DNA of 64,000 nucleotides from Gluconacetobacter diazotrophicus PA1 5 (GTDB lineage Bacteria; Pseudomonadota; Alphaproteobacteria; Acetobacterales; Acetobacteraceae), in the NCBI RefSeq assembly GCF_000021325.1, contig NC_011365.1:620001-684000 (forward strand). Reading direction: 5' to 3'. Both the position numbers and the translations under genes were made by a program. The notes beneath the pieces are model-generated. The model worked only from the letters and a program-made list of their open reading frames with translations. It was not told where the DNA came from and ran no database searches. Below, one piece after another: positions 46,820 to 55,056 of this stretch; position 1 is the stretch's first letter, and every line of letters begins with the position of its first letter.

Positions 46820-46983
46820 AAAATCTGGCTGGAGACGCGGGCTGGTGAGCGAGAGCGGCCCAAAGGGCCGCGCCCGGCGTGCGCTTCCGAACACCGGAGC
46901 GGAGCGGCCTTGATGGCCGAGAGCACCGGAGCACAGGAAACGCGCGTCGGATCGCGGCCAGACCGCGTCTCCAGCCAGATTTT
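46820..46983. repeat. Structured repeat element, copy 1 (variable-arm hairpin)
   Basis: A 164-base element. Perfect complementary 21-base arms (46820-46840, starting AAAATCTGGCTGG, and 46963-46983) enclose a 122-base centre. About 105 bases of that centre match the centre of the 54894-55056 element at roughly 88 percent (counted by eye), while the arms of the two elements are unrelated. Internal hairpins: GCGGCCC-AAA-GGGCCGC, CGGCC-TTGAT-GGCCG, and CCGG/CCGG enclosing the latter. The last arm base is part of the cysE stop codon triplet. It may act as the cysE terminator. Confidence 0.85.
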
Positions 46984-47834
46984 CAGATCATGTAGTCTAT
47001 GGGGGGGAGCGTCTGGTCCATGGTGAAGGCGGGCAGCGAGGAATGGCGCGTGCCGACCGGCCGCGCGGGGTTGCCGACGACGGTGGTAAACGGCGCAACC
47101 GATTCCAGCACGATCGAGCCCGCCCCGACCTTCGCCCCCTCGCCCAGCTCGATATTGCCCAGGATCTTGGCCCCGGCGCCGATCAGCACGCCGCGCCGCA
47201 CCTTGGGGTGCCGGTCGCCGACATTCTTGCCGGTACCGCCCAGGGTCACGCCCTGCAGCAGCGACACGTCGTCTTCCAGCACCGAGGTCTCGCCGATCAC
47301 GATTCCAGTGCCGTGATCGAACAGGATGCGCCGACCCAGCCGCGCCGCCGGATGGATATCGACGGCGAACAGTTCCGATGCCCGGCTTTGCAGGTGCAGC
47401 GCCAGGTAGCGCCGCCCGTTGTTCCACAGCCAGTGCGCCACGCGGTGGCTCTGCACCGCGTGATAGCCCTTGAAGAACAGAAACGGCGTCGCGTAGTTCG
47501 CCGTCGCCGGATCGCGCTCGCGGATCGCCACCAGGTCGGCGGCGGCGGCGGCGACGATTTCGGGATCGGACTCGAAGACCTCGGTCACCAGGTTGGACAG
47601 CGCGTCGTCGGCCACCGACCGGTCGCCCAGCTTGCGCCCGATCAGCGCCGCCAGCCCGTTGGCGAAACTGGCATGGTTGCGAATGCCGGTCGCCAGCAGC
47701 CCGCGCACCAGCGGGTCGCCGCAGCCCTCGCACCCACGGGCAATTTCGTCCCACAGCCGGCGATAATCGGCGGCCAGCAGCGCAGGATCGGCCTTGCGGG
47801 CCTCGGTCAGCGAGATCAGGGACGTATCGGGCAT
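46983..47834 (-). CDS. cysE: Serine O-acetyltransferase
   Basis: A 283-residue enzyme making O-acetylserine from serine and acetyl-CoA for cysteine synthesis. An N-terminal helical domain (about 1-150) contains the HRVAHWLWNNGRRYLALHLQ region. A left-handed beta-helix of hexapeptide repeats follows (IHPAARLGRRILFDHGTGIV, GETSVLEDDV, GGTGKNVGDRHPKV) with catalytic His/Asp residues. Its C-terminus ends exactly where the structured repeat begins. Confidence 0.94.
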   Translation of the reverse strand: MPDTSLISLTEARKADPALLAADYRRLWDEIARGCEGCGDPLVRGLLATGIRNHASFANGLAALIGRKLGDRSVADDALSNLVTEVFESDPEIVAAAAADLVAIRERDPATANYATPFLFFKGYHAVQSHRVAHWLWNNGRRYLALHLQSRASELFAVDIHPAARLGRRILFDHGTGIVIGETSVLEDDVSLLQGVTLGGTGKNVGDRHPKVRRGVLIGAGAKILGNIELGEGAKVGAGSIVLESVAPFTTVVGNPARPVGTRHSSLPAFTMDQTLPPIDYMI

Positions 47835-47910
47835 GGTGAACCTGATGAATGGACGAGAATGACGATATGGTAATCCGCGCCCGCCCTGACCAGAGGGAGG
47901 TGCGGAAGAG

Positions 47911-49173
47911 CTATAGCCCCATGGCCTGTTTCACGAAGGCCCGGCGCAGCCGGGGCAGGCGATGCACCCCCGCCAGGCCCAGGTCGCGGACGCCGCGCAG
48001 GATGGGATTGTCGTTGCCGAACAGGCGTTCCAGCATGTCGGTCGCGGCCAGCATCACCATGTTGGACGGGCGGCAGCGGGCCTGGTAGCGGCGCAGCAGC
48101 GTCGGGCTGCCCGGGTCCTCGCCCCGCGCATGGGCCGCGATCAGCAGGTCGGACAGCGCGATGACGTCGCGGAAGCCCACATTCAGGCCCTGCCCCGCGA
48201 TCGGGTGCATGCCGTGGGCGGCGTCGCCCGCCAGCGCCAGCCGCGTATCGAAATAGCGCTGGGCATACTGAAGCGACAGCGGATAGGTCCAGCGCTGCCC
48301 GACCGAGGTCACGCGGCCCAGCCAGTCGCCCATCCGGCGCTGGATTTCGTGCGCGAAGGCATCAGGCGGCAGGGCGACCATACGCTGGGCCACGGCATCG
48401 CTTTCCGACCAGACGATGGCCGACAGGTTCGGGTAATCCGGGGTGGGGGCCATCGGCAGTTGCGCGAACGGACCGGCGGGCAGGAAATGTTCCAGCGCCC
48501 GATTCTGGTGCGGGCGTTCATGCGCCACGCTGCAGACGATGCCGCTGGTATGGTACGGCACGCGCGTGACGGCGATGCGGGCCTGGTCGCGCAGGGTGCT
48601 GCGCCGCCCTTCCGCCGCGACCACAAGCCGCGCGCCGAATTCGTGGCCCGCGCGGGTGCGGATTCGCGCACCCGATTCCGTGCGTGTCACGGTGACTTCC
48701 TCCGGCGCCAGCACGGTGATCGTCTCATGGGCACTCAGTGACGCGTTCAGCGCCACGCGCAACGCCCGGGCCTCGATCATCCAGCCGAAGGGCTGGTCGG
48801 CGTCCTGCCGTCCGAATTCCAGGAACAGGGGCGACGGGGCCTCGCCCGGGCGTCCGTCGGAGACGCGGATTTCCTCGATCGGGCAGGCCGGCAGCGGCAG
48901 GCGGTCCCATACCCCGGCCGCATCCAGCAGCCGGCGCGATCCGGCAGCGATGGCGTATGCGCGGCCGTCGAAGGCCGGATCTTCCATGGGCGAGAGGGGT
49001 GCGCGGTCGACAATGGCCACGGACAGCCCCCCGATCGCCAAGCGGCAGGCCAGCGTGGCGCCGACCGGCCCCGCGCCCACGATGCAGACATCGACATCAC
49101 CGGGGATGTCAGGCGGGACGTCACGGGCATCGGCAAATCCGGTCCGGGGAAAGGGCTGCGTGCCTGCGGTCAT
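47911..49173 (-). CDS. UbiH/UbiF/COQ6-family FAD monooxygenase
   Basis: A 420-residue flavin hydroxylase, probably of ubiquinone biosynthesis. FAD binding is shown by VDVCIVGAGPVGATLACRL near 27-45, the DG-type motif LVVAAEGRRSTLRDQA and the second FAD motif GDAAHGMHPIAGQGLNVG with FRD. Which ring position it hydroxylates cannot be read from sequence. ATG 49173 is taken, 24 residues before the Rossmann strand; upstream frame is not conserved-looking. Divergent to glnK. Confidence 0.85.
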   Translation of the reverse strand: MTAGTQPFPRTGFADARDVPPDIPGDVDVCIVGAGPVGATLACRLAIGGLSVAIVDRAPLSPMEDPAFDGRAYAIAAGSRRLLDAAGVWDRLPLPACPIEEIRVSDGRPGEAPSPLFLEFGRQDADQPFGWMIEARALRVALNASLSAHETITVLAPEEVTVTRTESGARIRTRAGHEFGARLVVAAEGRRSTLRDQARIAVTRVPYHTSGIVCSVAHERPHQNRALEHFLPAGPFAQLPMAPTPDYPNLSAIVWSESDAVAQRMVALPPDAFAHEIQRRMGDWLGRVTSVGQRWTYPLSLQYAQRYFDTRLALAGDAAHGMHPIAGQGLNVGFRDVIALSDLLIAAHARGEDPGSPTLLRRYQARCRPSNMVMLAATDMLERLFGNDNPILRGVRDLGLAGVHRLPRLRRAFVKQAMGL

Positions 49174-49325
49174 GCGTGGGGTCCTGTGGTGGCCATGCGG
49201 ATCGGACGACCCGCGACAATCGTGATCCGTTCCGGTGCTGCCAGCCCATAAATCAGGCAGAATCCCCCGGGTCGAAGGATGCAACGCACACCAGACGGGC
49301 TTCGGCGTCAACCGTGCGCAGAGAT

Positions 49326-53789: not shown

Positions 53790-53802
53790 GATCTGCGCTC
53801 CT

Positions 53803-54777
53803 TCATTCTGCCGGACGTGCCGCGCGGGGATGGGCGCGGGTCCAGACTTCCGTCAGCCGGGCCTCGTCGGCCAGCGTATAGCGCTGGGTCGTCGACAGGC
53901 TGGCATGGCCCAGCAATTCCTGGATCGTGCGCAGATCCGCGCCGCCTTCCATCAGATGGGTGGCGAAGGAATGGCGCAGGGCATGGGGCGTGGCGTGGTC
54001 CGGCAGGCCCGCCATGTCGCGCCAGGCGCGCATCGCCCGCTGCGCCACCGCCGGCTGCAACCGGCCGCCCCGCACCCCGGGGAAGAGCGGCGCGTCGGGC
54101 AGAGGCGCGGGATGCCGCGCCCGCCAGTCCGTCAGCACACGCGCCACCGCCGGCAGGATCGGCACCAGCCGTTCCCGCCCGCCCTTGCCCCGGACCAGCA
54201 GCGTGCCGCCCGCCGACAGCGCGTGATCCAGATCCCGGACATCCAGCCCCAGCGCCTCGGATATCCGCAATCCGCAGCCATACAGCAGCAGGAACAGCGC
54301 CGCGTCGCGCGCCTGCCCCAGGGGCGTGACCGCCAGGTCCCCTACACCATCGGGCACGTCCAGGGCCTGCGCTTCGGACAAGGGGCGCGGCAGGGGGGAT
54401 TTGGTACGCGGCGCGGCCAGCAGGCCGGGCGCCGGATTGGTAACGCCATGACGCCGCGCCAGATAGCGATAGAAGGACCGCATGGCCGACACCCGCCGCG
54501 CCCGGGTCCGCGCCGCACGGTCCGGCGTGCTGGACCGCCCCCGGTCGCGCTGTGCCAGCGCATGTCCCTGGGCATGTTCGAACGCCAGCCATGCCCGCAG
54601 GTCCGCCAGCGACAGTCGGTCCAGTACCGCCAGGTCCACCGTGCCGCCGACATGGGCGCCGATGAAATCCAGGAACCGGTCCAGGTCACCGCGATAGGCC
54701 GCGATCGTCAGGGGCGAGGCCCGGCGTTCGTCCCGCATCCAGTCCAGGAAGGCGTCGCGCAGATCCGCGCCCGTCAT
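53803..54777 (-). CDS. xerC: Tyrosine recombinase XerC
   Basis: A 324-residue site-specific recombinase acting at dif to resolve chromosome dimers with XerD. The N-terminal core-binding domain is followed by the catalytic domain with R ([15 protein letters not shown]), K ([12 protein letters not shown]), H-x-x-R ([12 protein letters not shown]), H ([11 protein letters not shown]) and the nucleophile Tyr (QRYT). It is the host's own Xer protein, not a prophage integrase: no phage genes are near. ATG 54777 is taken; a TTG frame reaches to 54810. Confidence 0.92.
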
Positions 54778-54893
54778 GCGCCGCCCCCCATCACGCGTGA
54801 CGGCGGACAAGACAGGAAACGACCGGGGCGATAGAAAACCTCATGGCACATGCGAGTCTAGACAAACGCACCCCGGCACGGAAGGCGGGAATG

Positions 54894-55056
54894 GGAGGCT
54901 GCTTCAAAAGCCCCGCTGCTGAGCGAGAGCGGCCCGAAGGGTCGCGCCCGTCGTGTGTTTCCGAGCACCGAAGCGGAGCGGCCTTATGGCCGTGAGCATC
55001 GGAGCGCAGGAAATGCGCGTCGGACCGCCAGCAGCGGGGCTTTTGAAGCAGCCTCC
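54894..55056. repeat. Structured repeat element, copy 2 (variable-arm hairpin)
   Basis: A 163-base element. Perfect complementary 28-base arms (54894-54921, starting GGAGGCTGCTTC, and 55029-55056) enclose a 107-base core related to copy 1 at 46820-46983. Differences between the copies preserve pairing: CCGA/TCGG here against CCGG/CCGG there, and GCGGCCC/GGGTCGC against GCGGCCC/GGGCCGC. A further long pairing joins CGTGTGTTTCC and GGAAATGCGCG through G-T pairs. It lies between divergent xerC and priA and contains the probable priA start. Confidence 0.85.

Follow-up and report, generated by a model that had tools for sequence, protein, structure and literature searches.

A window of 64,000 nucleotides from Gluconacetobacter diazotrophicus PA1 5 (NC_011365.1, positions 620,001 to 684,000) contains two copies of a small dispersed element, in which a conserved core is closed by two arms that pair perfectly with each other. 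We consider it fairly probable that both belong to a large family, found in acetic acid bacteria, of non-autonomous mobile hairpins, similar to miniature inverted-repeat transposable elements (MITEs), whose arms derive from the ends of insertion sequences and, once inserted, change on both sides together. Mobile folded repeats of small size have been described before, as in the accessible part of PMC10969869; ends that are private to each copy and change together are the unusual feature of this family.

A previous inspection of the window, hereafter the sequence-only reading, had described a two-copy repeat with unrelated, perfectly paired arms. The two elements are indeed 164 (copy 1) and 163 bases long (copy 2), their cores are 88% identical and their arms pair perfectly over 21 and 28 bp (Table 1). 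The word "unrelated" is nevertheless too strong, as roughly 25 nt on each side can be aligned between arms of every class, copies 1 and 2 carrying different arm classes of one family. Moreover, the repeat is not confined to two copies. In this genome blastn matches the core 43 times at E ≤ 10, in 25 cases over nearly its full length, and a covariance model finds 41 matches. All 14 Gluconacetobacter genomes examined carry core matches, and a second genome of the same species has both window copies. In a sample of 60 genomes, the source genome included, matches occur in all 13 of the genus and in 7 others; in a family-wide survey they occur in 22 of 120 sampled genomes and 20 of 102 genera (E ≤ 1e-6, strict filters). 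A pattern scan of named genomes returned at least 109 stretches, with Gluconacetobacter as the source of all 80 among the matches listed. The 164-base query had no match in the plasmid and phage collections, and no part of the window matches Rfam at the gathering threshold, where weak sub-threshold matches fall at both copies. The copies of this genome have no clear replication-arm bias (by eye, with the origin assumed near position 0). With its length of about 165 bp, the element is short, repeated and dispersed as a MITE is expected to be.

To compare arms, 186 copies were assembled from 91 of 150 matches (>100 bits), 70 of 84 (>100 bits, one incomplete match omitted) and 25 of the 41 of this genome; merging of identical contexts left 167 distinct copies. 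Terminal inverted repeats of the MITE kind, with at least 8 outer arm pairs, are present in 143 of them. The remaining 24, several of which are inner units of tandem arrays, were omitted from the analyses of duplications, insertion sequence ends and stop codons, while the count of arm mismatches over 14 positions keeps all 167. The 143 well-paired copies have 124 distinct left outer arms, and Watson-Crick pairs make up 1648 of their 1721 outer arm pairs, a proportion (95.8%) that leans high because it was measured over a stretch extended by pairing. In 24 copies of this genome the mean score of the two arms of a copy is 17.7, against 6.9 with the arms of other copies (0 of 10000 permutations), and in 17 of the 24 the copy's own right arm is unbeaten by that of any other. 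Over 14 arm positions the 167 copies have on average 2.0 mismatches, against 6.4 with swapped arms, and 61 are perfect. The same holds for 40 copies from seven other genera, with 37 distinct arms and 11.2 of 14 positions matching, compared with 5.9 after shuffling (maximum 7.25 in 1000); in one genome, G013, 4 of 6 copies pair poorly in the register used. Many copies with distinct self-complementary arms, which the sequence-only reading had named as support for its claim, are thus present in this genome and its relatives.

Comparison with resident insertion sequences suggests that the arms are most likely transposon ends. When the outer arm is taken as 11 bases, the 3-mer on its right is TCA in 54, TGA in 11 and TAA in 5 of the 143 copies. 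An identical 3-mer stands on both sides in 27 of 143, against a mean of 12.6 and a maximum of 21 in 500 shuffles; since this register is fixed and arm indels shift it, some duplications are misread. Simple target duplications of an ordinary MITE, which the sequence-only reading had set against its own proposal, are therefore present in part of the family. The genome has 25 matches to PF13340, a family present in 13 of the 14 genomes of the genus, which we take to be a domain of IS5-family transposases. Two resident multi-copy insertion sequences, roughly 930 and 883 bp long, carry the ends GAGCCCGATCCGAAAG and GAGCCTGTTTGGAAAG and TNA duplications; IS1031 is presumably the group to which these resident IS5-family elements belong. 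When the arms are compared with five insertion sequence ends, 3 of the 143 copies match at all 14 positions, 12 at no fewer than 13 and 81 at no fewer than 10; shuffled arms reach this last level in about 0.1% of cases, the null being drawn from one arm and the observed value from the better of two.

The state of the duplication follows this similarity. Copies close to insertion sequence ends retain it intact in 12 of 24 cases, intermediate copies in 12 of 57 and distant copies in just 3 of 62 (P = 5e-6 between the first class and the last). The number of mismatches between the arms of a copy is 0.75, 1.2 and 0.6, respectively, and does not rise in the distant class. As the duplication is lost with distance and pairing is kept, the simplest reading of these comparisons would be that arms begin as transposon ends and then drift with age while remaining paired. 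Moreover, the TNA context and the ends point to a DDE transposase and not to the RAYT of repetitive extragenic palindromes (REP) and bacterial interspersed mosaic elements (BIME). The suggestion that arms are made anew at each locus is not supported as it was worded, the arms being homologous between copies, in many cases similar to insertion sequence ends, and different between orthologues, often on both sides at once.

That the arms differ between copies, some ending in A and T tracts like those of a terminator, could also be accounted for if the arms were part of the site and the core had inserted into the loop of a hairpin already there. This explanation, put forward in the sequence-only reading, is very improbable. 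Copy 2 is present in both genomes of the source species and absent from 11 other species with alignable flanks, one further genome having no flank match; the empty sites, judged by eye, have neither arms nor hairpin, which refutes insertion into a pre-existing hairpin for this copy. At two further loci the element occurs in six and seven genomes, with arms that vary among them and, by eye, mostly pair, while five genomes at each lack both element and arms by eye (one genome at each was not judged, and one more at the first locus had no usable start). Arms that resemble insertion sequence ends are likewise at odds with arms that belong to the site. The empty copy 2 site in priA provides, at one locus, the precise empty site expected for a MITE, and its comparison with copy 2 shows no clear target duplication there.

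On either strand, copies 1 and 2 fold with z scores of -10.3 to -12.4 relative to dinucleotide shuffles, none of 200 shuffles being as good in any case, and the predicted fold joins the arm stem, a short GC hairpin (hairpin 1) and a long hairpin (hairpin 2) at a three-way junction. The consensus of 24 copies of this genome is the same three-way junction. In these copies 95.5% of stem cells are paired, and two-sided changes occur in 31 of 61 pairs; 172 cells are changed on both sides, compared with 52.5 in shuffles (0 of 500), and the count falls to at most 32 when partners are slid out of register. The remark of the sequence-only reading that core differences keep base pairs is thus genuine and of general validity. 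In 142 aligned copies the strand as first read has 510 G-U cells against 88 A-C cells, 366 of the 510 lying in four columns (131, 113, 80 and 42 of 142 copies) in which G-U is the commonest pair or nearly so. This excess points to the strand as first read as the one that folds, either as RNA or as single-stranded DNA.

The covariation and the G-U pairs kept on one strand would also be expected if, in the same MITE-like family, pairing were held by selection on a putative folded RNA (a terminator, a 3' end stabiliser or a small RNA), each paired change being two ordinary mutations. We hold this to be rather unlikely. All counts on orthologues come from pairs in which the flanks align over 200 bases or more. 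The 24 close pairs have right flanks that are at least 94% identical; among their 1460 stem pairs, 67 have changed on both sides, and every one of these is a standard pair. A further 40 one-sided changes leave the pair intact, and differences occur at 91 of the 957 unpaired positions. One pair of copies, the flanks of which are 99.5% and 97% identical, shows 12 two-sided changes and no one-sided change, which argues against two separate mutations per pair. In the outer arms, 33 one-sided and 10 two-sided changes are found among 288 at flank identities of at least 94%, whereas at 86-94% there are 27 one-sided and 66 two-sided among 360. With one-sided changes prevailing at short distance and two-sided ones at longer distance, one-sided changes of the outer arms look transient. 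Moreover, 42 of these 66 two-sided changes, and 48 of all 76 in the outer arms, are not pure transitions, contrary to what selection acting on successive ordinary mutations would lead one to expect.

The differences between orthologous arms could instead reflect turnover without evolution in place, with loss and new insertion at favoured sites, or overwriting by other copies. At the cysE stop codon, where copy 1 lies, two of 14 genomes (those of the source species) share copy 1, two have other paired arms, three have relics, six have no element and one is unaligned; the two non-source elements are both tandem, and the three species there have different arms and unalignable left flanks, as replacement would predict. 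Hairpin 1, in turn, alternates between two recurrent versions in close orthologues (for example L189/L127 and L178/L140), again in line with turnover. Nevertheless, we regard turnover as distinctly unlikely as the general cause. At the locus of L131, L173 and L055, six genomes have arms that closely resemble one another in an unusual sequence, and these three copies are among each other's nearest neighbours. Among 26 copies compared, nearest neighbours are also orthologues in L055/L056, and L202 is nearest to L193 and L200. Overwriting by homology, furthermore, should stop at arms that differ.

Several observations weigh against mobile hairpins whose arms derive from insertion sequences and change in concert. 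Mobility is itself something that we infer from shared ends and duplications in the sequence. Among the 40 copies of other genera just 2 have identical 3-mers, and TNA flanks the right end of 9 and the left end of 3; a terminal repeat pair with duplication was seen at just 7 of 31 transposase loci examined. The close orthologues also contain 87 one-sided changes, 47 of them unpaired. Transitions account for most two-sided changes of the inner arm (30 of 47) and of hairpin 2 (50 of 60), as ordinary G-U-mediated compensation predicts; those of hairpin 2 also speak for selection on a folded RNA. In the comparison of 26 copies, L178, L140 and L034 have unrelated copies as closer neighbours than their orthologues, and exchange or replacement is favoured at such loci. 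Finally, orthologous pairs share history and are not independent.

The mechanism that we favour would operate as follows. The arms would be terminal inverted repeats, probably recognised in trans by IS5-family transposases (IS1031 group), as shared ends and duplications suggest, with a 3-bp TNA duplication. A fresh copy would have arms like insertion sequence ends and an intact duplication; as it aged, the duplication would decay and the arms would leave the insertion sequence end while staying paired. Old copies with private, still matching arms are what the comparison of copies gives. Template switching within the palindrome during replication, copying a change from one arm to the other, is the likely cause of the paired changes, and we favour it over selection and replacement. 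Patch exchange between copies would probably add to arm change, since hairpin 1 switches between two recurrent versions. Taken as a whole, the scheme in which ends rewritten as pairs by template switching leave the transposase recognition sequence and keep their symmetry, giving private hairpins and some terminators, is tentative, and we would grant it a little less than an even chance.

One end of the element adjoins stop codons far more often than the other. In 81 of the 143 copies a minus-strand frame of 80 codons or more has its stop codon at -2 to +1 bases from the right end, and in 14 of 143 from the left end (P = 1e-12); control 3-position windows at 400 and 800 bases gave 2 hits in 286 on the right and none in 267 on the left. 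Of the 19 copies whose arms end in A and T tracts, 16 lie at such stops, compared with 65 of the other 124 (P = 0.012). The same ends are in excess among arms unlike insertion sequence ends, an excess that is partly circular because that class is defined by distance from those ends; the comparison with stop-codon position is free of this circularity. Some of these copies, with their A/T arm ends at stop codons, would act like two-way terminators. The preference for one end and the concentration of A/T ends at stops would equally suit selection on a folded RNA, against which stands the fact that the best-folding strand is antisense to the mRNA of the adjoining gene.

In the window, copy 1 follows this pattern, the stop codon of a cysE-like gene (46983-46985) abutting its right end. 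Copy 2, unlike the copies at stop codons, sits in the first codons of priA. An ATG at 54843 aligns with the priA start of the 11 other species, the N-terminus of which is uninterrupted. The frame from this ATG meets stops inside copy 2 and the PriA frame is open only from within it (Table 1), so that translation must start inside the element. Copy 2 therefore probably supplies a new start codon for priA.

Table 1. Features of the window and related copies elsewhere in this genome (G000:C1); positions are those of the window unless G000:C1 is named
Feature	Position	Strand	Remarks
Element copy 1, complete with arms	46820..46983	+	covariance model match 46835-46971, 133.1 bits
Copy 1 left arm	46820..46840	+	21 bp, drifted terminal repeat, AAAA end
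Copy 1 right arm	46963..46983	+	21 bp, TTTT end
Copy 1 hairpin 1	46855..46871	+	short GC hairpin
Copy 1 hairpin 2	46874..46950	+	long hairpin, limits approximate
Serine acetyltransferase gene, cysE-like	46983..47834	-	PF06426 and PF00132
Element copy 2, complete with arms	54894..55056	+	covariance model match 54909-55044, 149.3 bits
Copy 2 left arm	54894..54921	+	28 bp
Copy 2 right arm	55029..55056	+	28 bp
Copy 2 hairpin 1	54929..54945	+	
Copy 2 hairpin 2	54948..55023	+	limits approximate
priA frame	54953..57265	+	PriA domains; open only from 54923, inside copy 2
Short relics L064, L068, L069, L071, L077	G000:C1 near 944728, 2226062, 2856769, 828595, 905320		
Solo palindromes L062, L063, L061	G000:C1 21013, 2624178, 3140318		

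Variants of the element were also encountered. Matches L376-L382 (G079) and L384-L387 (G116) span 116-117 instead of 137 positions, which suggests a subfamily without about 20 core bases. L114, L132, L126, L168, L133, L177 and L055 are tandem arrays of 2 or 3 elements with a period of about 156-168 bases, the inner units of which keep left flank, left arm and core while the matching right arm is missing (by eye). The short relics of Table 1 have a strongly shortened core closed by paired arms, and solo 19-base palindromes, GAGGCTGTTTCAAAAGCCT, represent one arm class without a core. An inverted pair of GAGACTGTTTCAAAAGTCT about 6.5 kb apart, with TTA on both sides (L075 and L076; G000:C1, 3005841-3012321), is perhaps an insertion sequence with similar ends, broken by later insertions. 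Another arm-like inverted pair, 848 bp apart (G000:C1:3139489 and 3140318), was considered as an insertion sequence and set aside, no transposase being seen between its members, where the frame looked MgtC-like. At the cysE stop, L223 (G010), from a species without the element there, has three short ggtcagatcat-unit repeats around the stop codon.

Among known systems, ERIC, RUP, BOX and SPRITE are small folded intergenic repeats, presumably mobilised in trans, and the present element resembles them in these respects. We know of no copy-private arms in any of them. The element shares GAGCCTGTTTGGAAAG-type termini and the TNA duplication with the IS5 family, in what we take to be its IS1031 group, and differs in being about 165 bp long and having no transposase; its internal sequence was not found in the resident IS5-family insertion sequences. 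Bacterial MITEs, in the accessible part of PMC10969869, have terminal inverted repeats and direct repeats that wane with time, are moved in trans by resident insertion sequences, and are credited with predicted folded transcripts and suggested terminator roles; the same part names ERIC, RUP, BOX and SPRITE among small repeats. Measured against that account (PMC10969869, in part), our family is similarly short, with terminal inverted repeats, a decaying duplication and ends shared with insertion sequences, but its terminal repeats are copy-specific yet self-paired, its core covaries strongly and one of its ends prefers stop codons. As to template switching, the available part of PMC8794818 describes single events in RNA genes that restore pairing or make multi-base paired changes, and regards the evidence that template switching maintains short stems as circumstantial. 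Multi-base paired changes of that kind (PMC8794818, in part) are seen here in orthologues; the system described there, so far as that part extends, consists of RNA genes, whereas the present family comprises numerous dispersed copies and includes series of orthologues. A literature search, the coverage of which left out most subscription journals, found no description of this element family, and a term search of the accessible part of PMC2267715 gave no match.

How both sides of a stem come to change is an old question, and this family offers numerous dispersed hairpins that probably share an origin, series of orthologues from up to seven genomes at one locus and, in the decaying target duplication, a rough clock. 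If the reading proposed here is true, the family would provide, in nature and with replication, a test of whether changes on both sides of a stem arise from one mutational event or from two that are selected, and would thus be useful for studying how hairpins stay paired during evolution. For the bacteria that carry them, these are small mobile elements that settle at stop codons with one end preferred, and that in one case interrupted the start of the replication gene priA.

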